Part shown: in pieces, positions 4,607 to 62,175 of the stretch
Layout of the letters: each line of letters opens with the position of its first letter
How positions within the stretch are numbered: the stretch's first letter is position 1
Assembly (NCBI GenBank): GCA_963576735.1
Contig: OY755191.1
Location: forward strand, 13,235,608-13,299,607
Source: Bedellia somnulentella
Taxonomy: Eukaryota > Arthropoda > Insecta > Lepidoptera > Bedelliidae
DNA length: 64,000 nt
Direction of reading: 5' to 3'
Made by a program: the position numbers and the translations under genes
The notes under the pieces: generated by a model
Told to the model about the DNA's origin: nothing
Databases searched by the model: none
Seen by the model: only the letters and a program-made list of their open reading frames with translations

Positions 4607-5630
4607 CTAGCTGACCCCACAGACTTCGTACTGTCAAAAGTGTAGACTTTCACGTCGTCAAACTGAAATATTTAACTGACCGGTTGAGGGTCTCTGTCAT
4701 GCGATGAGAAAAAAGGTGTTAATCATAGCGTCCTCACAATTTTTTCACTTCATAAGTTTTAAGTTTATAAGTATAGTAGTTTCGGCTGAGCATTGATTCT
4801 TAGTCAGTTAGTCTATTTAACCATTTTTTAAGAATATTTATTGATCTCTTAATTTTTCTGGGATAAAAAGTGTCCTATTGTGTTAATTAGATCATTATCT
4901 GGCTTTCTGTAAATTTTATTTTAAATGCGTTTTGTGAATAAGTCTTCATTTAGCTACAAACAAACAAACATCTAAACTTTCACATTTATAATATTAATAG
5001 GATTAGGCTTAAACATAAGCTTCTCGCGCAGGTGACCTCGCTCGCCGGCCAGCGCAGCGTATGGTCTTGCGCTTCATGCACGCGTGTAAAATTTGTTACG
5101 GAGTAATTTTAAAATTGTATTATCTTCTAAGATGTTTATTTAAATTAAGTGATGTCAAGGACAATTTTGTTCTCAATTAAATACTGTCAATCAACGACAT
5201 ATTTATTTGGATAAAGATTAATATTATGTTGATAAAACATTATGGCAATTATGCATTAAATTCGACCAAATTTATTTCACATAAAAATGGTTATAGTAAG
5301 TGAAACTTAAAAGGTAGACATATCCTATCGCGGGCATTTTTTTAGATCATTCAAAGAGAAATAATTCATTATACATTTTTTTTGGGTAACTTAAACCGTT
5401 TACGCAGCGCACACAACGGAAGCCTTAGTATGAATAATTATCCCCGTTTTTGCAACATTATTCGCTGATAGTTTGCTCCTGTTGGTCGCAGCGTGATGAT
5501 ATATAGCCTATAACCTTCCTCAATAAATCGACTATCCAACACAAAAATAATTTTTCAATTTGATTGGGTAGTTCCTGAGATCCTAGCGTTCAAACAAACA
5601 AACTCTTTAGCTTTATAATATTAGTATAGA
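4607..5630 (-). mobile_element. non-autonomous Helitron
   Basis: On the minus strand it begins TCTATACTAATATTATAA after an A and ends GGGGTCAGCTAG before a T. These are the TC start, CTRR end and A/T insertion site of Helitrons. No Rep or helicase frame is present. The same family recurs at 14807-17900, and a 3' end at 12500-12660. Near 5040 it contains GC-rich sequence (CGCTCGCCGGCCAGCGCAGC) unlike its surroundings. Confidence 0.85.
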
Positions 5631-6280: not shown

Positions 6281-6621
6281 TATAAACATAAACGTTCACG
6301 CCGTTTATCCCCGAAGGGGTTGGCAGAGGTACCAATACTCCTGAACTCACATGGCAAGCGCCATCTAGTTTCCAGAGAAGGTACCCACGTTTTGCTTAGA
6401 CAGTGTACTCACGTGATAGGGGGCAGGCCTATCGCCGTTTTGTACGAATACACTGTCACATGACTAAGTACAACTCAGCCATGTGGGTTTCCTCACGATG
6501 TTTTCCCTCACCGTTAGCAACCATGATAAATTAACCACACATATGACTTTAGAAAAGACAAATTGGTGTAGGCCCGTCCCAGGATTGGAACTCACGCCCT
6601 TCTGTTTTTCGGGCGGGTGTT
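6281..6621 (-). mobile_element. SINE-A copy inserted next to an older one
   Basis: Subfamily with TTTCCAGAGAAGGTACCC. The tRNA-like head is truncated at its 5' end. A 13-bp target-site duplication, ATAACCCTATTAA, lies at 6268-6280 and 6622-6634. Confidence 0.9.
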
Positions 6622-13111: not shown

Positions 13112-13182
13112 GGCTTGGGAATATATTATTCAGAAGCTCTGGCTACCCCTTTCTGGAATTTATAGCCGTGAGTGCATGTTTT
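13112..13182 (+). repeat. SINE-B 3' relic
   Basis: CAGAAGCTCTGGCTACCCC, then ATTTATAGCCGTGAGTG, with no TATG tail. It faces the next, opposite SINE-B copy. Confidence 0.7.
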
Positions 13183-13195
13183 ATAACATAACATA

Positions 13196-13436
13196 ATATA
13201 ACATATACTCACGGCTATAAATCCCTTGAAGGGGTAGCCAGAGCTAAGGAATTAGAAATTCCTCAGCCACTTTTGCAAATGTGAGTGGGGAAAAGATGGT
13301 AAAAGTGAAGGTTGTTGGTGATGGGTCTCCAACCGCATCGCCCAAAAATCCCTTTAAAGCCCCAATACCGTTAGTCGCCTCTTACGTACACCCACCGGAA
13401 GAAATGAGGTAGTGTTATTCTAAGCCTACACTACAC
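13196..13436 (-). mobile_element. full SINE-B copy
   Basis: TATACTCACGGCTATAAATC to CTAAGCCTACACTACACAGC on the minus strand, with all core blocks present. Confidence 0.85.
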
Positions 13437-14407: not shown

Positions 14408-15661
14408 TACATACACTTACATAAAGTAAATATGCTTATAATTGCACTGTCCCATTTCCACCCGTGGTGGTAAGTAAGGTTGGAGACCCATCACTTCCGC
14501 TTCCGCTTAAAACACCTGCGAGAAAATATTGGTTAGTGTTATAATAAGACGACATCACACAGAATACCTTACTATACCTTACCTTTTTGCAGTCGGTTAA
14601 AATACCCTACCTCAAAGTGTACCGTGCAGTGCCGGCTTAAAATTTCGCTACCCCTTTCTACCCACGGGTTTTGTAAGAGGCGACTAAGGGTATTGGGGCT
14701 TGTTATTGGATTTTTGGGCGATGAGGTTGGAGACCCATCACCAAAAACCTTTATTTTTACCATCTTTTCCCCACTCAACATCCAAAAGTGGCTGAGGAAT
14801 TTATAATCTATATTATATTATAATATTATAAAGCTGAAGAGTTTGTTTGTTTGAATGCTAGGATCTCAGGAACTACCCAATCAAATTGAAAAATTCTTTT
14901 TGTGTTGGATAGTCCATTTATTGAGGAAGGTTTTAGGCTTTATATCATCACGCTGCAACTAACAGGAACAAACTATCGGCGAATAATGTTGCAAAAACGG
15001 GGATAATTATTTATACTAAGGCTTCCGTTGTGTGCGCTGCGTAAACGGTTTAAGTTACCCAAAAAAATGTATTAAAGAATTATTTCTCTTTAAATGATCT
15101 AAAAAAATGCCCGCAACAGTATATGTCTAACTTTTAAATTTCACTTACTATAACCATTTTTATGGTAAATAAATTTGGTCGAATTAAATGCATAATTGCC
15201 ATAATGTTTTATCAACATAATATTAACCTTTATCCAAATAAATATGTTGTTGATTGAGAGTATTTAATTGAGAACAAAATTGTCCTTGACATCACTTAAT
15301 TTAAATAAACATCTTAGAAGATAATACAATTTTAAATTACTCCGTAACAAAATTTACACGCGTGCATGAAGCGCAAGACAAGACGCTGCGCTGGCCGGCG
15401 AGCGAGGTCACCTGCGCGAGAAGCTTATGTTTAAGCCTTATCCTATTATAAGTTTGTGTGTTTGTAGCTAAATGAAGACTAATTCACAGAACGTATTTAA
15501 AATAACTTTTACAGGAAGCCAGATAATGATCCCAATTAATACAATAGGACACTTTTTATCCCAGAAAAATTAAGAGATCAATAAATTTTCTTAAAAAATG
15601 GTTAAACAGACTAAGAATCAATGCTCATCCGAAACTACTATACTTATAAACTTAAAATTTA

Positions 15662-17754
15662 TTGGAGCGAAGCGAGCGTAGCGAGCGAAGCTCCATTTAC
15701 CCCCGACTTTTGCATTTCTTTGTGATCGTACTCCTCCCAAACGGCTCAACTCAGAACCCTGAAATTTTGCATGGTTGTCAAGGACTATGTTTAGATGGTT
15801 TATGTCAATTTTGATAAAAATCGGAGGAAAAATCACCATTTTAAAAATTTTAATGTTAGTATATGGAAAAATTACGTAAACAATGTCAGCGCGTGAAAAT
15901 AGAAGCTATATTAATCATTTCGTCACGGGGTACGGTAGACTCGATCGAAACCTTACCTGAATAATAATACATAAAAAAATAATGATTTTGAGTCGACAAC
16001 ATGTATCCGCAAAATTCGGATTGTCGAGTATTTTGCTAAATTTTAATGGTGCTGATTGCTGACAAACAAATCTTAGTCGCCATATTGACTGTCACCCGAT
16101 GACATAAACGTTCCGTTTCATAATGTTATTCAATCGTTTCGCAAAGGACAAGGAGGTTTCGATTGAGTCTACCATACTCCTTAACGAAATTATTATTATA
16201 GATACTATATACTTCAGTCGTTGTCGTTTCTCGATAATATTGTTTTTGCCACTTTTGTATCCGCTTTAGTGCATCACCACAAACTGTAAAGAGATTACTA
16301 CGTAATCAGACTAACCACTGCCCAAGCTATAGACAAGACTTTAGTCTATGACGTGCGAACGGTTGCTTTTGGCATGTTTTGTTTTTGTTTTAACGAAAGA
16401 ATGACTAAATGGCTCTCCAATGCGTTATAGTGGTAAGTTATGCCAGCTGCGAACTAGAGGGACCACATAGGCCCTTGGGGGAAAACACCCAAAAATTCAT
16501 TGACATAAATTCATATACTCACGGCCATAAATCCCAAAAAGTGGTAGCTAGATACATACATATAAAGAAAGAAAATGTGCACTCATTATAAAATAAATAG
16601 AACATAATGATAATTATAAGTAGCGTCGAAGAGTGTACCGGACTATTTTAGTGCCATAGGTTCTTACACAGCCAACATTTTTATGCATACGACAAAGATT
16701 ACCTTCCTTGAGTTAGTTTTGGTTTATATTTAAACATCTAGGATTTATGACTCACTGAACAATATAGGCTGCATAATTTATATCTTACCCTGTTCTAAAA
16801 TGAAACAAGGATACAAACAAATAATACTGTCAGTATCAATCTACCCTAAGGTCAAGAACAAACTAGAGGACTCATAAGGCCGTGGTGCATCACCCAAATT
16901 GTAGTGCAGACTTCCAAACTACAATAAGCTTATAGCAAGCAGGAACTTAGAACACGTTTATTCGAATTCATGACTTATATCTATTCCAGTCAGTAATGAC
17001 AGTTTCTGCGTCTCTATTTGTATTAATTTGTTCTGATTGTACTCATTATGCCGAATATCGTATTGAAGTAGTCGAAGTATTTCATAAAGTCTTTCATTGG
17101 TCGTGTATTTGTTTGTTGTTTCTCCTTGTATTTGGTAAATATTGTCACAATTCTGGCAAGTGGATGCAGCGAAGGGCTCTTCGTAACGATGGCAAATTTA
17201 GTATGTATGTCGGTATTCAGCCATACGCTAGGATACCCCTTATTGTTCGATAGGCCCCCTTAGGCCGCGCGCAGTAAGAGCTACCATGGGGTGTCCTAGA
17301 CTGTTGCCGTCTACCCAGGCAGTTTGTGCTGACTGAAGAAAAGAGTATCTATAATAATAATTAATAGATAAAATCAATGAACGAATCTAGACGAATCTAT
17401 GCCTTGCTTACCTTTAATATTCCTTGAGAACAGATGACTACAAAAGTATACTTGCTTACTTACTTACTTATACTCACTGCTTTAAATCCCTAGAAGGGGT
17501 GGCCAGAGCTAAGGATTTAGAAATTCCTCAGCCATTTTTGGAAAATTGGGTGGGGAAAAGATCGTGAAGTGAAGATTGTTGCTAATGGGCCTTTAAACGC
17601 ATCGCCCAAAAATCCCTTGAAAGCCCCAATACCGTTAGTCGCCTCTTACGTACACCCATCGGTAGAAAAGGGGTAGTGCTATTCTGAACCGACACTATAT
17701 ATATATATAGCTTCGCTCCTATTATTGGCATACGACGGTCCCATGCCAACCTAG
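15662..17754 (+). mobile_element. second Helitron-like element nested in the first
   Basis: This block is absent from the sister Helitron at 4607-5630. Its right end has a 7-bp stem hairpin (TTGGCAT ... ATGCCAA) followed by CCTAG and a T, which is a Helitron 3' terminus. The left end follows an A but begins TT rather than TC, and then has the palindromic, GC-rich GGAGCGAAGCGAGCG ... GCGAAGCTCC. It has no transposition gene. A relic SINE-B 3' end lies at 16505-16560. Confidence 0.65.
17441..17700 (-). mobile_element. SINE-B copy with TAAG-type tail
   Basis: Full minus-strand SINE-B whose tail reads CTTACTTACTTA, that is (TAAG)n in its own orientation, instead of (TATG)n. The (TAAG)n tail also occurs on RTE copies at 24305-24545 and 39990-40240. 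It is the innermost of four nested layers. Confidence 0.88.
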
Positions 17755-24304: not shown

Positions 24305-24545
24305 CGACGTAGTATGCAAGATAGAAAAAGGAATGTTGAGGTGGTTTCGGCATATAGAGAGGATGGATGAAAATAAAGTAGCGAAAGAGATATACAGAGC
24401 CAATGTGGATGGGATTGTTAGTAGAGGAGGAATAATGAATGTAAGGGAAGCAAGAGAGGTTTGTCAAGATCGTACTAAGTGGCGATCGATAGTCTCTGCC
24501 TACCCCAATGGGAATAATGGGTGTGAGTATAAGTAAGTAAGTAAG
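24305..24545 (+). mobile_element. RTE LINE 3' end, TAAG-tail subfamily
   Basis: Encodes GMLRWFRHIERMDENK, then ANVDGIVSRG. An internal deletion then joins to NVREAREVCQDRTKWRSIVS. It ends GGGTGTGAGTATAAGTAAG with a (TAAG)n tail. Confidence 0.85.
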
Positions 24546-29520: not shown

Positions 29521-29670
29521 AACTTGTAAAAGAAATAAAGGATAGAAGAATTTCGCACTGGCAGCCAATTGACACGGTGGCTCAGTTGGCAGAGCGTCGG
29601 GGCGTATACCCGAGGTCGCGGGTTCGATTCCCGCCTGTGTCGAAATTTTTCTTTCCTTTATTTATTCTTT
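29521..29670 (+). mobile_element. SINE-C copy with a tRNA-Tyr-like core
   Basis: The core is preceded by AAGAATTTCGCACT and followed by AAATTTTTCTTTCCTTTATT, both shared with the copies at 45543, 61762 and 62060. A stray reversed 3' end of the family (AACCTCATGTGGGGATTATT) lies at 29437-29480. Confidence 0.75.
29571..29642 (+). tRNA. tRNA-Tyr(GTA)-like sequence, probably the SINE-C core
   Basis: It folds as a full cloverleaf: acceptor GACACGG with CTGTGTC (one G:U pair), anticodon stem TCGGG/CCCGA around loop GCGTATA (anticodon GTA), and T-arm GCGGG-TTCGATT-CCCGC. Loop position 33 is C instead of the nearly universal T. There is no intron, although eukaryotic tRNA-Tyr genes usually have one. 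Diverged siblings with shared flanks point to a SINE rather than a working tRNA gene. Confidence 0.55.
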
Positions 29671-29800: not shown

Positions 29801-30045
29801 GCTGTGTAGTGTCGGCTTAGAATAGCACTACCCCATTTCTTCCGGTGGGTGTACGTAACAGGCGACTAATGGTTTTGGGGCTTTTGAGGGATTTTTGGGC
29901 GATGCGGTTGGTGACCCATCACCGACAACCTTTATTTCACCATCTTTTCCCCACACAACTTCCAAAAGTGGCTGAGGAATTTTGGATTCCTTAGCTCTGG
30001 CTACCCCTTCTAGGGATTTATAGCCGTGAGTATATGTATGTATGT
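29801..30045 (+). mobile_element. SINE-B copy in the Helitron
   Basis: GCTGTGTAGTGTCGGC to TATG tail. The 11-bp target-site duplication TATATTTTTTT lies at 29790-29800 and 30046-30056. Confidence 0.93.
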
Positions 30046-30130
30046 TATATTTTTTTGTATTTATATTTAGATATATTTTTTTATTTTTTTTATTTTTTAT
30101 AATGAGTAATTACATCAAAAGCCATTCAAT

Positions 30131-31636: not shown

Positions 31637-32668
31637 CATACATACATACATACATATTCTCACGCCGTTAGTTCCCATTGGGGTAGGCAGAGACTATCGA
31701 TCGCCACTTTGTACGATCCTGGCAAACCTCTCTGGCTTCGTTTACATCCATCAATCTTTTCATACATGCTCTTTTATTCTTCATACTGCGGACACCTGCC
31801 TTTTTGAGCACATTTTCTATTTGATCCAAATGTGTCCTCCGAGGTCGTCCTCTACTAACATTACCTTCCACATTGGCTCTATATATCTCTTTCACCAATT
31901 TACTGTCATCCATCCTCTCTATGTGCCCAAACCATCTCAACATTCCTTTTTCTATCTTTCTTACAATATCATCTTTTACACCACACCTTTCATGAATCAC
32001 ATCATTCCTCACACGATCACATAACCTTACATTACACACTTTTCTGAGGGATCTCATTTCTACTGCATTCACTCTACTTTCATGCTTCTTCTGCCACACC
32101 CAACATTCACTGCCATACATAAGCGTAGGAACGAGGACAGCATCATGCACAGCCATTCGGGCCTTTTCAGACACCGACTGACTAGACATTAGACTATCCA
32201 GTGCTCCATTTACCGCATTACCCTTTTTCACTCTTCTCTCGATATCTTCATCACATTTTCCATCCCTAGTAAACAAACTTCCCAAATATACAAACTCTTT
32301 CACTTGTTCCACTTTCTTACCATTAATCTCAATCACGCATTCGGTCATATTCACCTCTCTCTCAAAAACCATAGTTTTTGTTTTATCCACATTCACCCTC
32401 ATTCCCTTTTTTTCAAAAGACGCACATACAATATTCATCATCTCTTGCAGCTCTTCTACCGATGATGCAAGTAGCACTTGATCGTCGGCATATAAGAGGC
32501 ATTTAATGATGAATCCACCCATTCTCAATCCATAATCACTTTCACGCAACTCTGTTAAACAGTCATCCATGAACAAATTGAAGAGCCACGGGGAAGCTAC
32601 ACAACCCTGTCGGACACCCCGAGAGATCCCGAACCAGTCAGTATTTTCCCCGTTTACTCTCACACACT
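31637..32668 (-). mobile_element. longest RTE LINE copy in the window
   Basis: 5'-truncated copy with tail (CATA)n at 31637-31658 and the full 3' hairpin (TTCCCATTGGGGTAGGCAG on the plus strand). Flanks TTTTTAA on both sides suggest a target-site duplication of at least 7 bp. This copy is the reference for the other LINE fragments. Confidence 0.9.
31668..32663 (-). CDS. RTE-like LINE reverse transcriptase, 5'-truncated, 331 codons open
   Basis: The visible protein starts inside the reverse-transcriptase palm: GVRQGCVASPWLFNLFMDD (motif B), CLLYADDQVLLASS (catalytic YADD, residues about 57-60), then VNVDKTKTMVF and FVYLGSLFTRDG. The C-terminal region follows with CWVWQKKHE, GMLRWFGHIERMDDSK and DRTKWRSIVSAYPNGN, then a stop 24 bases before the tail. 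The frame has no stop or shift, so the copy is recent. The endonuclease and the first half of the palm are missing, so this copy cannot move itself. The Met at the start is internal. The GHIERM-type C-terminus and tetranucleotide tail fit the RTE group. The clade is inferred. Confidence 0.85.
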   Translation of the reverse strand: MRVNGENTDWFGISRGVRQGCVASPWLFNLFMDDCLTELRESDYGLRMGGFIIKCLLYADDQVLLASSVEELQEMMNIVCASFEKKGMRVNVDKTKTMVFEREVNMTECVIEINGKKVEQVKEFVYLGSLFTRDGKCDEDIERRVKKGNAVNGALDSLMSSQSVSEKARMAVHDAVLVPTLMYGSECWVWQKKHESRVNAVEMRSLRKVCNVRLCDRVRNDVIHERCGVKDDIVRKIEKGMLRWFGHIERMDDSKLVKEIYRANVEGNVSRGRPRRTHLDQIENVLKKAGVRSMKNKRACMKRLMDVNEAREVCQDRTKWRSIVSAYPNGN

Positions 32669-33805
32669 TTTTAAGTCTCTTTTATAATTTTAATATTCAA
32701 GTAAACTGTGTTGTAGTTAATATTTCAAATGTGAATAAACGTCTCTTCTTTCTTTCTTTCTTTTGTATTCAAAAATTGCGTACGTTTATTTACATCTACC
32801 GTCATACCGTTTAGATTCTGAGTGCAGCCGTACCTACCAATCTAGCTGTATTACATATGTTATAAGCAATCTGTATTTAAGGCAATGTATTAAATAATAT
32901 TTATGTACACCTTGCCTAGGCATTCTAAAGAATGCCTAATAAACATTAGGCAATGTGTTAAAAATAAGTGAAAAATATACCTTGCATTTTCGGTCGTAAA
33001 TTTTTCAGTGTCTGATAATAACCAAACACGCGAGGCTTCATTTCACTGCGCTGCACTTCACTCCGTTCCACGAAGCTCCACTTCACCAGCTCCGCAAACT
33101 CCCCATCATCGTTCCGTGTTCTCCGCTGGCTCCGTAGAGCTTCGTTTTACTTTGTTCAGCTTTGCTTTGTCTATTACGCACTTGCATTTATTTTTACCCC
33201 TCTTTCTTACTTCCCATTGTAGCATAGGTATTAAATTTCATAGTTTACCAGTGATTCAACAGGCATTCTATAGAATGCTTAGGAATTCTTTACATTGCCT
33301 AGGAAAAGTATGAAATAGAGTTAAGATGATATATAATTTCATAAATTTCCTACAGGATCAAGGCCCCTACACCTATAGATTGCCTATGTATGGACATTGT
33401 TAGTTATCTTTCTAAGGTTATACATGCGAGAGTTTGTAAGGATGGATGGATCTTTGTTACTCTCTCACGCAAAAAGGGCTGTATGGATTTCAATCAATTT
33501 TGGTGGAAAGATAGAATATAACCTGGATTAACTCATAGGCTATGTTTTATCCTGAAATTCCCACGGGAACCATTATATAACTAAAAATACCTTGTTACCT
33601 TTATTCTAAAGATTACACAAAAAACACCAATTTTCTAATGACTAAAATAAAGTGAGCTACAACGGGCTTATGCTGCAAATAAATGCTCTTCCTCTGGACC
33701 AGTTTACATTAAATTATCATTTCTCGTTCCCGCGCTCTGTTCATTTTTGTAAAGAAAAACGAATCGTTAATCTATGGTAACTACACACGGATGCTAATAA
33801 TAGGA
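32669..33805. other. no gene; scattered TE-like pieces
   Basis: GTGAATAAACGTCTC followed by (TTTC)n at 32733-32763 resembles a LINE 3' end. GAGAGTTTGTAAGGATGG to AAATTCCCACGGGAACC (33428-33573) resembles the interior of lepidopteran Helitrons. The CACTTCAC/GCTCCAC-rich stretch near 33040-33140 is unexplained. Confidence 0.45.
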
Positions 33806-35625: not shown

Positions 35626-35990
35626 GCAACCGTGATAGCCCAGTGGGTAGAACACTCGGTTATCGTGCAAACGACTAGTGTTCAAATCCTGGGTCGGGCC
35701 TACACCAATTTGTCTTTTCTAAAGACATATGTGTGGTTAATTTATCATGGTTGTTAACGGTGAGGGAAAACATCGTGAGGAAACCCACATGGCTGAGTTG
35801 TACTTAGTCATGTGACAGTGTATTCGTACACAACGGCGATAGGCCTGCCCCCTATCACGTGAGTACACTGTCCATGCAAAACGTGGGTACTCTGAACACC
35901 AGGTGACAAAGTCACGTGATGTTCAGAAGTATTAGTACCTCTGCCAACCCCTTCGGGGATATTCGGCGTGAACGTTCATGTTTATGTTTA
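35626..35990 (+). mobile_element. full-length SINE-A copy
   Basis: GCAACCGTGATAGCCCAGTG to GGCGTGAACGTTCATG and a (TTTATG)n-like tail. The sequence is close to the 27264 copy. Confidence 0.92.
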
Positions 35991-39989: not shown

Positions 39990-40240
39990 TTTATATGTGC
40001 CAATGTGGATGGGATTGTTAGTAGAGGACGGCCTCGTTAAACGTTTCTTGACCAGATAGAAAACGTTCTTATAAAGGCGGAGGTCCGAAGTGAGAAGAAT
40101 AAAAGAGCATGTATGAGAAGAATAATTAATGTAAGTGAAGCAAGAGAGGTTTGTCAAGATCGTACTAAGTGGCGATCGATAGTCTCTGCCTACCCCAATG
40201 GGAATAATGGGCGTGAGTATAGGTAAGTAAGTATTTATAT
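39990..40240 (+). mobile_element. RTE LINE 3' end, TAAG-tail subfamily
   Basis: ANVDGIVSRGRPR to SIVSAYPNGNNG, with frame damage, then GGGCGTGAGTATAGGTAAG and a (TAAG)n tail. About 95 AT-rich bases follow before the host LINE resumes at 40337. Confidence 0.8.
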
Positions 40241-41017: not shown

Positions 41018-42361
41018 ATGAATGAAAACTTAAACCTAAATAAAAACCACAAAACTCCACCACAACAATCCGCTCCGGCAGAAAGTAGCCGTAAAGTCTA
41101 CACTCAACAAATTTTTCACAAAAGTCTATTTGATGCAAGACCTCGCAGTAATTCTGTTCCTGATATTACTTCGAATGACAAGAATACTCCTAAACAAACC
41201 CAAACAACTTCATCTGCCAATGAGACTGAAGCAGCCAACGTTACTAACGACCTTTCTTTCCTAGAACCTCCGCCATGGCAACGAGTACCAGGCAGTAAGA
41301 AAAGAAAACTGGTAAATTCTCCACCATCCCCCACCACCTCTACTCACAATAGGTAAGGCGGTCTACCTGTCGACCAAGAAGAAGAATCAGCCAACAAACC
41401 AAGACAAATCAACAAGCCTCCCCCAATTGTTCTATATGGCGTAGATGACGTAAATCAGCTCACTAAACTTCTAACAGAGGCAGTAGACTCCGAATCATTC
41501 AAATACAGGATAGTCAACAAAAACTTGCTTCGAGTTATGGTAGACTCCTCAGAGAACTACAAGAAAGTAATTGATGTCATTCGGCAAAATGGACTAATTG
41601 GACATACCTTTGCAAGAAAAGAATCTAGATGCTACCGTATTGTTATCAAAAATCTTCACCATACAACACCCCACAGTGCCATCATTGCGGCAATGGAACA
41701 AACTGGGAATATGGTGAGAGGCGAAATAGTGAATTCTCGACATGGTCCCGATAAAACTCCCACATCAAACTTCTTTGTTAACTTAGAACCAGGTGATAAA
41801 AACAAAGAAGTTAAAAGGATTGAATATATTTATCATCAGCGTGTAAAAATTGAAGATCCTCGAAAGTCGAAAACTAAAGTCCAGTGTCAAAGATGTCAGC
41901 AATACGGCCGTAGAAGAAATAACTGTATGAGGCCATATAGATGTGTTAAATGTGGATTAGGCCACAAAACTTCTGACTGTCCCATGAAGGATAGGAACAC
42001 CCCAGCTAAATGTGCTCTCTGCTCCTGTGACCACCCCGCGAACTATAAAGGCTGTCAAGTCTACAAAGAGATACTAGCCAGAAAATCGAACCCCCGACCT
42101 TCTAGACCGAATCAAAAGTTTACCCCGAACAGTGCACCTCTACCGGCACGTAGTAACAAGGTTAACCAAAAAACTTACGCTGAGGCTACGGCTAGTGCTC
42201 CCCATGAAAAAGAAAACGTCAATAATGATCCTACTGACAACACACAAAAAACTATGATGCAACTAATTATTAAGCAGAACGAAAAAGTAGATCAGCTCAT
42301 TCAACAAATAGGTACTCTCTTAAACCTATTGACAACAATGATAACAAAAATAGCTCCGTAA
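41018..42361 (+). pseudogene. Jockey ORF1 (gag-like, zinc knuckles) with one in-frame stop
   Basis: The reading frame starts at ATG 41018, is broken by TAA at 41354-41356, and then continues in the same frame to the stop at 42359-42361, about 447 codons in all. The N-terminal third is polar (PPQQSAPAESSRKVYTQQIF). A middle RNA-binding region (YRIVIKNLHHTTPHSAIIAA) precedes three knuckles: CQRCQQYGRRRNNC, CVKCGLGHKTSDC and CALCSCDHPANYKGC. In the first the ligand His is Arg (GR for GH), a likely loss of zinc binding. The C-terminus is a helical MMQLIIKQNEKVDQLIQQ. ORF1 proteins package LINE RNA and deliver it to chromatin. The last stop base overlaps the ORF2 start (TAATG). Confidence 0.88.
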
Positions 42362-42705
42362 TGGCTGCTTACATACGAATAGCTACCTGGAACATCAATG
42401 GGCTCTCGGCAAATATACTTGAGCTTGAAGCATTCATCAACACAAATAAACTGGATATTGTGCTCATATCTGAATCCCATACCACTGTAAACAAATCTTT
42501 TCTATTAAGAGGCTTTAACATTTATCACACCTCGCATCCTGATGGCAAGGCTCATGCTGGTGCAGCTATTGCAATTAGATCAATCCTCAAACACTCCTTG
42601 TTGGATCCTTTTATATCTACACATATCCAAGCCACTAAATTTGTAGCTGGAGGTTATTGGAATTCCAAGAACACATTTTTGGGGCTCGCGACTTACTCTG
42701 GCTAG
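42361..42705 (+). pseudogene. Jockey ORF2 endonuclease, N-terminal part
   Basis: ORF2 begins at the ATG overlapping the ORF1 stop. IRIATWNINGLSANILELEA and LDIVLISESHTT hold the first catalytic Asn and Glu of the apurinic-type endonuclease. After FVAGGYWNSKNTF the frame shifts at about 42682: the other frame continues SRLTLARGRKLKKSLDKN, which belongs near the end of the domain. By comparison with the usual domain length, about 100 codons including the central GDFN-type motif are deleted. The element can no longer cut DNA. Confidence 0.85.
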
Positions 42706-44911
42706 AGGCCGTAAACTAAAAAAATCCCTGGATAAAAACCAAATTTTGCCAATTTCATCCGGTGAGCCTACCTACTGGCCAACCGATCCGAACAAACTTC
42801 CAGATTTGCTAGACTTCTTCCTAACAAAAGGAATTAGCCAGCTCTGCACCAAGGTTGAATCAAATTTGGACGGATCTTCTGACCATACCGCAGTTATACT
42901 AACCCTCAGCTCCACGGTACTTATAAGAGAGCCCAATGAGTCTCTTTACAATAGAAAAACCGATTGGGAGGGCTTCCGGGACTACGTAGACGACAATCTG
43001 AACTTGAAAATTCCTTTAGCACAGCCTAATGACATTGAGAATGCATTTATGCACGTGACCAACCTCATCCAGGTTGCAGCTTGGAAAAACACTCCTGCGC
43101 TTCTTCACAAAGTCGGGTCTATTCTGCAGCCACCCAACATTAAGAGCAGTATACTGGAAAAACGACGATTACGAAGAGTATGGCAAACATCACGTCACCC
43201 AAAAGACAAATCTGCCTATAATAAAGCAGCCAAACAGCTAAAGATCCTCCTTGAAAACTCGGCTCAAGAGGAAATGAAGAAGTTTCTCTCAAACTTATCT
43301 CCTCAAAATAAAGGTGAACTTTCTCTTTGGAAGGCCACAAACATCTCTGGCAAACCTCAAGTATCTTTTCCACCACTGCGATCTGAATCTTCCTGGGCGA
43401 GAACAGACTCTGAAAAGGCTGAAGTCTTTGCAGCCCATCTCGCTACTGTATTCAAACCGAATCCCTCCAGTAGTCATGAAGAGCCTGCTTCAATAGGTGA
43501 AATATTGAATCGAGATTTTAAACTATGTCCACCTCTCCGAACAATTTCACCTAAAGAAGTAGGTGAAGAAATACGTCGCATGGATGCAAATAAGGCACCG
43601 GGTTACGATCTTATAACACCCAGAGTCCTTAAAAAACTCCCACGGAAATGCTTAACGTACCTGGCCAGTGTGTTTAATGCAATACTTCGTGAATTTTATA
43701 TCCCTCGTGTATGGAAGATCTCACAAATAATTCTTATCCACAAGTATGGCAAACCTCTTTATGAACCTACGTCTTTTAGACCTATAAGTCTTACTCCAGT
43801 TCTTTCCCAACTGTGGGAGAAGCTATTCCTAACTCGTTTATCCTGTGCTATAGAAGAGTGTCACATTGTACCATCGCATCAGTTTGGATTCAGGAAGTCG
43901 CACTCTACAGTGGAACAAATGCATAGAGTGTACCACACCATTCGCCAATGCTTTGAAGCCAAGCTTTACTGCAGCGCAGCATTTTTGGATGTCCAACAAG
44001 CATTTGACAAAGTCTGGCATCGAGGTCTTCTAGTCAAGATTAAGGAACGGCTACCACATCCTTATTTTTGTATAATTAAATCCTACCTATCCGACCGTCA
44101 ATTCTTCGTCATACAGGGTGATGCAAGATCAAAGCTATACGACATAGAAGCAGGTGTTCCCCAAGGGTCCGTCTTGGGTCCCGTACTGTACAACATCTTC
44201 ACCCATGATCTTCCAGTAACAGATGCTGTGACGGTGGCTACTTATGCCGATGACATTGCTCTGCTATCGTCTGACTCAAACCCAGCAAAAGCTAGTGCCA
44301 ATCTGCAAAGTCAACTAAATAGGGTACACTCCTGGATGTTAAATTGGCGAATACAGGCAACTGCTTCGAAATCTGCTCATATCACCTTTACCCTGAAACA
44401 AGATGACTGCCCATCGGTCAAACTAGGCACAGATACCTTGCCCCATACTGATTGCGTCAAATACCTTGGCTTCCACTTGGACAGAAGATTGACTTGGAAA
44501 AACCATATTAAAAAGAAAAGAGATGAGATCAATACTAAGTTCAAATCACTCTATTGGCTATTAGGGAGAAATTCTGTTTTGTCAACAGACAATAAACTTC
44601 TAATATACAAAAGTATACTAAAGCCAATCTGGACATACGGTGCTCAGCTATGGAGTACAGCTAGCAATAGCAACATTGTTTGCCTGCAACGGGTCCAAAA
44701 TGCTATCCTGCGAACAATTGCCAAAGCTCCCTGGTTTGCAAGAAACGATGAGATCCACAGTTACCTTAACATACCCACAGTGGCTGAAGAAATAACAGAG
44801 TTAAAAGCTAAATATACTGACCGACTAGTCGCACACCCAAATATTCTAGCAAACCAACTACTGGTCACTTCTCGCTCTGTACGGCGACTGAAGAGGAAAG
44901 ATGTTTTGTGA
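42680..44911 (+). CDS. Jockey ORF2, endonuclease end plus reverse transcriptase
   Basis: The frame is open from the deletion point to TGA at 44909-44911; the first Met is 42746 (721 residues from there) but is internal to the original protein. The end of the endonuclease is recognisable by DGSSDHTAVILTLSS, whose SDH is the last catalytic motif. The reverse transcriptase follows: FRPISLTPVLSQLWEK, HQFGFRKSHSTVEQ, AAFLDVQQAFDKVWH (motif A), GVPQGSVLGPVLYNIF (motif B), VATYADDIALLSS (catalytic YADD at about residues 500-503), and CVKYLGFHLDRRLTW. The C-terminus has LQRVQNAILRTIAKAPW. No RNase H is present, as usual for Jockey. The RT frame is undamaged, so the inactivating lesions are recent. 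Confidence 0.9.
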   Translation, partial: WGSRLTLARGRKLKKSLDKNQILPISSGEPTYWPTDPNKLPDLLDFFLTKGISQLCTKVESNLDGSSDHTAVILTLSSTVLIREPNESLYNRKTDWEGFRDYVDDNLNLKIPLAQPNDIENAFMHVTNLIQVAAWKNTPALLHKVGSILQPPNIKSSILEKRRLRRVWQTSRHPKDKSAYNKAAKQLKILLENSAQEEMKKFLSNLSPQNKGELSLWKATNISGKPQVSFPPLRSESSWARTDSEKAEVFAAHLATVFKPNPSSSHEEPASIGEILNRDFKLCPPLRTISPKEVGEEIRRMDANKAPGYDLITPRVLKKLPRKCLTYLASVFNAILREFYIPRVWKISQIILIHKYGKPLYEPTSFRPISLTPVLSQLWEKLFLTRLSCAIEECHIVPSHQFGFRKSHSTVEQMHRVYHTIRQCFEAKLYCSAAFLDVQQAFDKVWHRGLLVKIKERLPHPYFCIIKSYLSDRQFFVIQGDARSKLYDIEAGVPQGSVLGPVLYNIFTHDLPVTDAVTVATYADDIALLSSDSNPAKASANLQSQLNRVHSWMLNWRIQATASKSAHITFTLKQDDCPSVKLGTDTLPHTDCVKYLGFHLDRRLTWKNHIKKKRDEINTKFKSLYWLLGRNSVLSTDNKLLIYKSILKPIWTYGAQLWSTASNSNIVCLQRVQNAILRTIAKAPWFARNDEIHSYLNIPTVAEEITELKAKYTDRLVAHPNILANQLLVTSRSVRRLKRKDVL

Positions 44912-45542: not shown

Positions 45543-45665
45543 AGCAAAGAAGAATTTTGCTTCAGTAGTCACTTGACACCATAGCTCAATTGACAGAGCG
45601 ACAGGTCGCGGGTTCGAGTCCTGCTGGTGCCAATAAAATTTTCTTTCCTTAATTGATTAGTGATA
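45543..45665 (+). mobile_element. SINE-C copy with shortened tRNA core
   Basis: AAGAAGAATTTTGCTTCAG, then GACACCATAGCTCAATTGAC, then GGTCGCGGGTTCGAGTCC, with the anticodon arm deleted, then AAAATTTTCTTTCCTTAATT. Confidence 0.7.
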
Positions 45666-46818: not shown

Positions 46819-47070
46819 AGTGCCGTGTAGTGCCGGCTTAGAATGTCGCTACCCCTTTCTACCCACGGGTGTCGTAAGAGGCGACTTAGGGTATTGGGGC
46901 TTTTTATTGGATTTTGGGCGATGCGGTTGGAGACCCATTACCAAAACCTTTATTTTTACCATCTTTTCCCCACTCAACTTCCAAAAGTGGCTGAGGAATT
47001 TATAATTCCTTAGTTCTGGCTACCCCGTCTAGGGAAATATAGCCGTGAGTATATGTATGTATGTATCTAT
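46819..47070 (+). mobile_element. SINE-B copy, GTGCCGGC subfamily
   Basis: GCCGTGTAGTGCCGGC to (TATG)n. The target-site duplication GTACATAT lies at 46811-46818 and 47071-47078. Confidence 0.9.
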
Positions 47071-47081
47071 GTACATATTTA

Positions 47082-47158
47082 TAGTCACGGGTATAAATCC
47101 TATGAAAGGGTAGCCAGAGCTTAAGAAATGGAATTCCTTTGCCACTTTTGGTGAACTT
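47082..47158 (-). repeat. SINE-B 3' relic
   Basis: AGTCACGGGTATAAATCC to TTTGCCACTTTTGG. The rest is lost. Confidence 0.7.
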
Positions 47159-49986: not shown

Positions 49987-50462
49987 ACAACCGCGATAGC
50001 TTAGTGCAGTACAGTAGTAGTAGTGGGTAGAACAACGCTTATCGTGTAGGCGATGAGGGTTCAAATCCCGGGTCGGGCCTACATACATACATACATATAC
50101 TCACGGCTATAAATCCCAAGAAAGGGGTAACCACAGCTAAGGAATTAGAAATTCCTCAGCCACTTTTGGAAAGTGCGTGGGGAGTAGATGGTGAAATAAA
50201 GGTTCTTGGTGATGGGTCTCCAACCGCATCGCCCAAAAATCCCTTAAAAGCCCCAATACCGCTAGTCGCCTTTTACGTACACCCACCGGAAGAAATGGGG
50301 TAGTGCTATTCTAAGCCGACACTACATAGCAATTTGTTTTTTTTCTAGAGTCATATGTGTGGTTAATTTATCATGGTTGTTATCGGTGAGGGAAAATATC
50401 GTAAGGAAACCTACATGGCTAACCTCTGCCAACCCTATCAGGGATATACGGTGTGAATGTAT
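49987..50462 (+). repeat. SINE-A copy split by SINE-B
   Basis: Head CAACCGCGATAGCTTAGTG to box-B GGTTCAAATCCCGGG (49987-50082). The head has an extra GTAGTAGTAG stretch. The body resumes at 50330 (CAATTTG, then GTTATCGGTGAGGG) and ends near CAGGGATATACGGTGTGAATG. The middle of the body is deleted. Confidence 0.85.
50083..50329 (-). mobile_element. full SINE-B copy inside SINE-A
   Basis: (CATA)n tail to CTAAGCCGACACTACATAG. It separates GGGCCTAC from CAATTTG, which adjoin in intact SINE-A copies. Confidence 0.9.
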
Positions 50463-50492
50463 ATACCGTTGAGTTTTGATTTGTTAAAATAC

Positions 50493-50703
50493 GTTTGCCG
50501 TGTAGTGTCGGCTTAGAAGAACACTACCCCATTTCTACCCATGGGTGATCGTAAAAAGCGACTAAGGGTATAAGGGCTTTTTAAGTGATTGGGCGATGTG
50601 GATACCCGTCACCAAAAACATTACTTATTACCATCTTTTGCCAATCAACGTCCAAAAGTGGCCCGTTAAGGGATTTATAGCTGTGGGTATATGTACGTAT
50701 GTA
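50493..50703 (+). mobile_element. SINE-B copy with core deletion
   Basis: GCCGTGTAGTGTCGGC to TATG tail, lacking part of the box-B-like core. The target-site duplication TGTTAAAATAC lies at 50482-50492 and 50704-50714. Confidence 0.9.
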
Positions 50704-50714
50704 TGTTAAAATAC

Positions 50715-50918
50715 ATACATACATATACTCACGGCTATAAATCCCTAGAAGGGGTAGCCAGAGCTAACGAATTAGAAATTCCTCAGCCACTTTTGGAAGT
50801 TGCGTGGGGAAAAGATGGTAAAATAAAGGTTGTTGGTCATGGGTTAGTCGCCTCTCACGTACACCCACCGGAATAAAAGGGGTAGTGCTATTCTAAGCCG
50901 ACAATACACACATTACGT
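50715..50918 (-). mobile_element. SINE-B copy with core deletion
   Basis: Tail (CATA)n to CCGACAATACACAC. The segment between TTGTTGGTCATGGG and TTAGTCGCCTCTC lacks the box-B-like motif. Confidence 0.85.
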
Positions 50919-51324: not shown

Positions 51325-51380
51325 AGTTGCCTGTCTCTGCCTACCCCAATGGGAACTAACGGCGTGAAAATATGTATGTA
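51325..51380 (+). repeat. very short RTE LINE 3' end
   Basis: Only the terminal CTCTGCCTACCCCAATGGG, CGGCGTGAAAATATG and tail remain, the shortest LINE copy here. Confidence 0.85.
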
Positions 51381-62059: not shown

Positions 62060-62175
62060 AGAATGTTATTAATTAATGTAGCTCAATTGGCAGAGCGACG
62101 GGGGCGTGAATACCCGGAGGTCGTGGGTTCGATTCCCGCTAGTGTCGAAATTTTTCTTTCCTTTATTTATTAGAT
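62060..62175 (+). mobile_element. SINE-C copy, plus strand
   Basis: GTAGCTCAATTGGCAGAGCG to CGTGGGTTCGATTCCCGC, then GTGTCGAAATTTTTCTTTCC. The acceptor 5' strand is lost. Opposite orientation to the copy 200 bases to its left. Confidence 0.75.

Follow-up and report, generated by a model that had tools for sequence, protein, structure and literature searches.

LINEs of the RTE type are widespread, as are their SINEs, and to our knowledge it is poorly known how the enzyme of an RTE-type LINE chooses its RNA. Among the closest described systems, PxLINE1.1 is a LINE of about 3.2 kb with an endonuclease and a reverse transcriptase (RT), an ATGT tail and a 13-nt target duplication, and the 43 bp at its 3' end are 84% identical to PxSE5, which is 89.6% identical to SfSE1 over 56 bp; Spodoptera SINEs with ATGTT tails, like the SINE-A family described here, are listed in the same paper (PMC8010984). 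In Helicoverpa, the RTE LINE HaRTE1.1 has a short 3' untranslated region (UTR), and its 3' end is shared by HaSE1 and HaSE3, two SINEs of different origins (PMC3272025). According to the review of Ohshima, L1 elements and SINEs of plants share about 50 nt, which form a hairpin with compensatory mutations (PMC3747384). In the L2 clade, a stem-loop near the 3' end of UnaL2 and ZfL2 is recognised by the LINE protein, a partnership of the stringent type (PMC4176376).

Here we analysed a stretch of 64,000 nucleotides from Bedellia somnulentella (contig OY755191.1; hereafter the window), which is densely populated by a LINE, SINE-A and SINE-B, three families with similar 3' ends of about 41 nt. The LINE ends in CTCTGCCTACCCC-AAT-GGGAACTAAC-GGCGTGAG, SINE-A in CTCTGCCAACCCC-TTC-GGGGATATTC-GGCGTGAAC, and SINE-B in CTCTGGCTACCCC-TTCTA-GGGATTTATA-GCCGTGAG. 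The three ends quoted in the initial annotation are real, and the window holds many copies of each family, but the LINE copy at 31637-31720 (minus strand; CTCTGCCTACCCCAATGGGAACTAACGGCGTGAGAATATG(TATG)n) has GAATATG, while the noted GTATATG occurs in other LINE copies. A 268-kb sample gave 104 hits, from which three were removed as chance hits, and the family of each of the remaining 101 was assigned from the flanking sequence (58 SINE-B, 22 LINE and 21 SINE-A). Genome-wide (549 Mb in 486 contigs), the loose LINE-type pattern CTCTGCCTACCCC-N{3,12}-GG-N{3,12}-GTGA matched 20,350 times (10,107 + 10,243), and the reversed control pattern matched 0 times. At E <= 5, 155 matches were obtained in 268,264 nt with a covariance model built from all three families; the 130 below 1e-3 all fell, by eye, to LINE, SINE-A or SINE-B, with no fourth family carrying the hairpin among them. 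Two motif patterns had 0 and 0 matches in a viral contig collection, where no relative was found by protein either, and a genome contig collection returned one distant match of 27% identity.

The minimum-energy folds of these ends show two stacked stems, an outer one in which CUCU-GCC pairs with GGC-G-(U)-GAG and an inner one of CCC with GGG. Across the families the outer stem reads CUCU-GSC ... GSC-G(U)GAG; it has seven pairs and one bulged U (six pairs in SINE-A) and encloses an inner C-run/G-run stem of three to four pairs, and the short repeated tail follows directly. The hairpin that had been annotated initially corresponds to the inner stem, which is real, but the outer stem enclosing it had been missed. 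In the LINE copy mentioned above, this element (hairpin II) and the start of the tail occupy 31652-31692 on the minus strand, with the outer 5' arm CTCTGCC at 31686-31692, the inner stem formed by 31680-31682 with 31674-31676, the outer 3' arm (GGCG, a U bulge and GAG) at 31663-31666 and 31659-31661, 3' of the stop codon, and the (TATG)n tail at 31637-31657.

The clearest compensatory change between the families concerns the middle pair of the outer stem: LINE and SINE-A have C-G there, and SINE-B has G-C. The inner stem closes its loop with C-G in LINE and SINE-A and with U-A in most SINE-B copies, and the counts of these two key pairs across copies are GC 31 to CG 26 and CG 25 to UA 19, respectively. 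All pairs of the 11-pair structure are formed in SINE-B and ten each in LINE and SINE-A, as C1-G37 is broken in the SINE-A consensus and pair 12-22 is absent in the LINE consensus. In a LINE subfamily with a (TAAG)n tail (24494-24534, plus strand), an altered linker allows two more outer pairs; in the second copy, at 40184-40224 (plus strand), this linker would extend the outer stem by pairing GCCUA with UGGGC. The SINE-A copy at 50424-50464 (plus strand) has a loop-closing U-A instead of C-G (CCCTATCAGGG), a double change as in SINE-B. The hairpins of LINE and SINE-A do not exceed their shuffles in stability (z -0.08 and -0.10), and in longer SINE-A folds the outer stem is lost to other pairings in the minimum-energy structure, in subfamily A2 to AUAAAC with GUUUAU.

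A full SINE-A copy (35626-35990, plus strand) starts with a possible tRNA-like head and has hairpin II from 35939, followed by a T(T)TATG tail; motifs like A and B boxes were seen by eye against the consensus, and Rfam gave no match at the SINE-A heads at gathering score. SINE-A additionally has a long hairpin I of its own (for example at 35877-35938, plus strand, and 6329-6390, minus strand), which differs by paired changes between subfamilies A1 (GTGAC-AAA-GTCAC) and A2 (ATGGC-GCTT-GCCAT); hairpin II of an A2 copy lies at 6288-6328 (minus strand). A full SINE-B copy (29801-30046, plus strand) comprises hairpin I, an upstream stem, at 29975-29991 and hairpin II from 29995, followed by (TATG)n. 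No tRNA-like or 5S-like head was seen in SINE-B, and the Rfam search at SINE-B starts was empty at gathering score. About 160 bases upstream of this copy lies a tRNA-Tyr gene (anticodon GTA; 29570-29643, plus strand), and weaker Rfam tRNA matches at 45575-45632 and 62077-62141 (plus strand) are possibly heads of another SINE.

Direct repeats flank both SINEs. In a test that drew on 21 SINE-A and 58 SINE-B copies, the 5' start could be recognised in 12 and 35, of which 9 and 22, respectively, had target-site repeats of at least 10 nt, compared with 17.5% and 11% in the controls, and the repeats were of similar length in the two families. Three tail-to-tail pairs of SINE-B within 80 nt (13137-13243, 47014-47119 and 50656-50763) were noticed among 37 ends, where 0.43 are expected at random (P 0.008, tested post hoc), as if the tails were preferred insertion targets. 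The window also contains an inverted repeat of 521 nt with arms 94% alike (5108-5628 and 14816-15336).

The pairing was tested on 70 of the 101 hits of all families, on 30 of the 43 LINE and SINE-A hits, which align in 41 columns free of gaps, and on all 72 SINE-B copies listed, with shuffles that ignore the relatedness of copies, and with a register that was fixed after the slid control, the inner register having been picked after inspection of all families. Across the 70 copies, 89.0% of the cells of the 11-pair structure were paired, compared with 83.0% in shuffles (0/500 as high) and 33-48% in slid versions; 51 cells were changed on both sides versus 22.6 (0/500), and the covariation score was 0.204 versus 0.112 (0/500; slid 0.026-0.101). 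Pairs changed on both sides were not unusually numerous in this set (5 versus 3.8, 109/500; slid 1-5), and further pair types fell below the shuffles (11 versus 12.1). Among the 30 LINE and SINE-A copies, four pairs were changed on both sides versus 1.2 in shuffles (0/500; slid 0-3). For SINE-B, whose tested 3' region included hairpin I, both-side changes were found in 13 of 20 pairs versus 6.5 (0/500; slid 4-11), with 33 pair types versus 25.5 (0/500; slid 19-23), and hairpin I itself had them in seven of its seven pairs.

A model trained on LINE and SINE-A was then applied to seven identical held-out copies of the SINE-B consensus, and it scored 38.6 bits (E 2.6e-7) with the structure included and 17.9 bits (E 4.4e-4) with sequence only; the gain from structure was 20.7 bits for these copies versus about 14 for the training members, 11 of the 27 sources having been searched for the comparison. 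Two old copies (58539 and 57663) scored higher without the structure than with it. When the five LINE-to-SINE-B changes were placed randomly on the 22 paired sites, equally many pairs and compensated pairs arose at P 4.8e-4, rising to 9.7e-4 when a transition bias was allowed for. RNAalifold, run unguided, returned both stems for the seven family consensuses (-8.0 kcal/mol, one compensatory pair, a covariation term of only -0.2), and three inner pairs only for all 70 copies (-0.82 kcal/mol). Genome-wide, 43 exact double forms of the middle pair of the LINE inner stem (C-G to U-A) were found; the four loci inspected are degraded copies, and we claim no compensation from these forms.

According to these results, a common hairpin plan for the three families, as proposed in the initial annotation, is supported by the pairing, the covariation and the held-out model scores, and the covariation of stem pairs between families, on which that proposal had been staked, is seen in two pairs that change on both sides. 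The proposed compensatory conservation was right in that paired changes go beyond chance, but most of the C-run/G-run stem is unchanged between families, and only its loop-closing pair is two-sided. Because the families differ by no more than two double changes, individual copies do not count as independent evidence, and since the shuffles ignore relatedness as well, we regard the case for the fold as good, if not yet conclusive.

The 3' part of the LINE RT reading frame lies at 31668-32681 on the minus strand (Pfam RVT_1, E 7.6e-20) and ends in ...DRTKWRSIVSAYPNGN-stop, with the TAA at 31668-31670. Open frames of the LINE reach 1058 aa, and an 889-aa part matches RVT_1 (E 2.7e-36) and, under the curated cut-off, an endonuclease model (E 2.6e-5). 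The clade name RTE is that of the initial annotation and of the literature on similar elements; among homologues with a species name, the best are RTs of Lepidoptera (Plutella, Phthorimaea, Pectinophora, Parnassius and Cydia), and other high hits are nameless. In a protein search of the genome, the ten best-scoring LINE loci all had an identical hairpin, and because these loci end identically and open frames of such length exist, the LINE was probably active recently. Another LINE, which we take to be jockey-like, lies at 41357-44911 (plus strand), with an ORF containing a PRE_C2HC zinc-finger-associated domain followed by a 754-aa ORF with an RT and a weak endonuclease match, and a different RT fragment (L010:8604-9182, plus strand; 32% to P0078) has a 3' end that by eye is unlike the shared module.

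The last codons of the LINE copy are TCT GCC TAC CCC AAT GGG AAC TAA (S-A-Y-P-N-G-N-stop), which places the 5' arms and the inner stem inside the coding sequence and the outer 3' arm beyond the stop codon, which itself falls in the linker. The 3' UTR is very short, as the repeat begins at about 31657. In other species the homologues end in SAYPxGxxA, SAYPSGK and similar sequences, and SAYP is found in 25 of the 53 homologues (120 in the set) that have a DR..W motif within the last 70 residues. It appears that moth relatives read through the outer 3' arm in another frame, with variable C-terminal peptides; judging from proteins, from which the last codons of the homologues (GAR GCG TGA) were deduced, GGCGTGAG may once have been GAG-GCG-TGA(stop)-G, and the LINE frame would have shifted with the bases kept and the peptide not. 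Among 16 sampled LINE copies, which were picked by upstream sequence only, divergence from the majority per site was 0.107 in the outer 3' arm and 0.295 in the adjacent linker, whose rate is inflated by the TAAG subfamily; for all 17 LINE copies the values were 0.151 and 0.311. We restricted the comparison to these two segments, because divergence at upstream codon positions is an unclean control, with copies selected partly on the hairpin or rates inflated by indels.

Whether the RNA signal for the RT spans the end of the LINE's own gene, with a 5' arm that is coding (S-A-Y-P-N-G), a linker containing the stop and an outer 3' arm beyond the stop, is to us an evenly balanced question. Since the relatives appear to read the outer 3' arm in another frame with variable peptides, what is retained there would be the RNA element rather than the peptide. 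This suggests that a LINE may do almost without a 3' UTR by letting the recognition hairpin span its own stop codon. If this is true, the SINEs, freed from the coding constraint, would expose the structure by base-pair swaps, a natural separation of the coding and the RNA constraint.

We consider it probable that SINE-A and SINE-B have retained for their mobility a homologous hairpin module, which is derived from the LINE and bound by its RT. The 3' module of the three families would be homologous and would stem from a LINE with practically no 3' UTR; its RNA would fold into the outer and the inner stem ahead of the short repeated tail. The LINE RT most likely binds this hairpin and begins target-primed reverse transcription at the tail, and the two SINEs may persist through retention of the same hairpin. 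The last four to five bases of each template seem to be copied again, which would allow TATG, TAAG and TTATG tails without different enzymes.

It is conceivable, but in our judgement unlikely, that shared descent is the whole story, that is, the SINEs took over the end of the LINE, the enzyme responds to the linear sequence or to the tail, and a C-run opposite a G-run gives the hairpin as a by-product. The LINE sequence would then be kept because it codes for S-A-Y-P, and the occurrence of this motif in the relatives fits this, as do the ordinary fold energies of LINE and SINE-A, the inner stem alone that RNAalifold gives for all copies, and the fact that the three family consensuses agree in seven of the 11 pairs, with two more missing in one family. 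However, two pairs are altered on both sides between families, the structure gains more bits for held-out SINE-B than for the training members, and the outer 3' arm lies past the LINE stop codon, yet it is less diverged than the linker; besides, the SINEs are not known to code. The earlier wording that the likeness is "not only shared descent" calls for caution, as the ends are homologous and half of the LINE hairpin is protein-coding. Recent exchange of 3' ends by template switching, in which case the similarity would be young and silent on function, is less probable still. In two cases the upstream junction coincides exactly with the first base of hairpin II (CTCTG), namely in the LINE copy at 51335-51375 (plus strand), which consists of hairpin II and tail alone with non-LINE DNA upstream, and in the deleted SINE-A copy at 50424-50464; nevertheless, family-specific differences are common to diverged copies and subfamilies, and the pairing is kept.

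The tails bear on an account with two enzymes, in which a further LINE from this lineage, with a TTATG tail and extinct, divergent or missed, would mobilise SINE-A; we think this improbable. In its favour, SINE-A precedes nine of the ten TTATG arrays in the sample, and SINE-A read in the LINE frame gives SANPFGD.RRER, as if it came from a LINE variant. A LINE that matches SINE-A better was nevertheless not found, with 0 LINE copies carrying the SINE-A tail genome-wide (one exact pattern) and none in about 280 kb: within 280,348 nt, 32 sites fit the SINE-A tail start (at most two mismatches), 20 of them have hairpin II upstream, all of these resembling SINE-A more closely than the LINE, and the other 12 lack such an end. 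The 130 model matches below E 1e-3, among which no fourth family was seen, also speak against it. Moreover, tails change within a family, because one SINE-B copy has a TAAG tail (17466-17508, minus strand), as one LINE subfamily does, and one has a TTATG-like tail (13201-13243, minus strand), as SINE-A does. The tails repeat the last four to five bases of their own ends (GTATATG to TATG, GTATAAG to TAAG, GTTTATG to TTATG), so the differing TTATG of SINE-A, which had been noted, can be accounted for by the same enzyme. Such tails are what slippage by one enzyme would be expected to leave, and it is plausible, on our reading of the sequences, that one enzyme serves all three families and that it is the LINE enzyme that would recognise the hairpin; this would explain how families with different tails could share it.

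Compared with the known systems, the families described here show three features of a stringent-type LINE/SINE partnership, namely a 3' end shared by SINE and LINE, a conserved 3' stem-loop with compensatory changes, and target-site duplications of the SINEs. UnaL2 and ZfL2 belong to another clade and have another hairpin, and its function was shown experimentally there (PMC4176376), whereas here we offer, from sequence analysis, a two-stem candidate with a natural compensatory pair for RNA recognition by RTE-type elements. The plant L1/SINE hairpin is similar in its shared end and its compensation and differs in its L1 clade, and the passages on it in the review mention no overlap with the ORF (PMC3747384). 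PxLINE1.1, PxSE5 and SfSE1, as far as their published description allows comparison, are a lepidopteran LINE and SINEs with a shared 3' end like the present families, and the main text of that report uses neither "hairpin" nor "stem-loop", nor was a discussion of ORF overlap found in it (PMC8010984). HaRTE1.1 is like our LINE in its short 3' UTR and in the two SINE families on its end, and unlike it in its TGA-repeat tail; "hairpin", "stem" and "stem-loop" are absent from the main text describing it (PMC3272025). A literature search, mostly within openly accessible papers, returned no hairpin for RTE-type moth elements. Common 3' ends of lepidopteran LINEs and SINEs are thus already in the literature, and the hairpin appears to be new for such moth elements.
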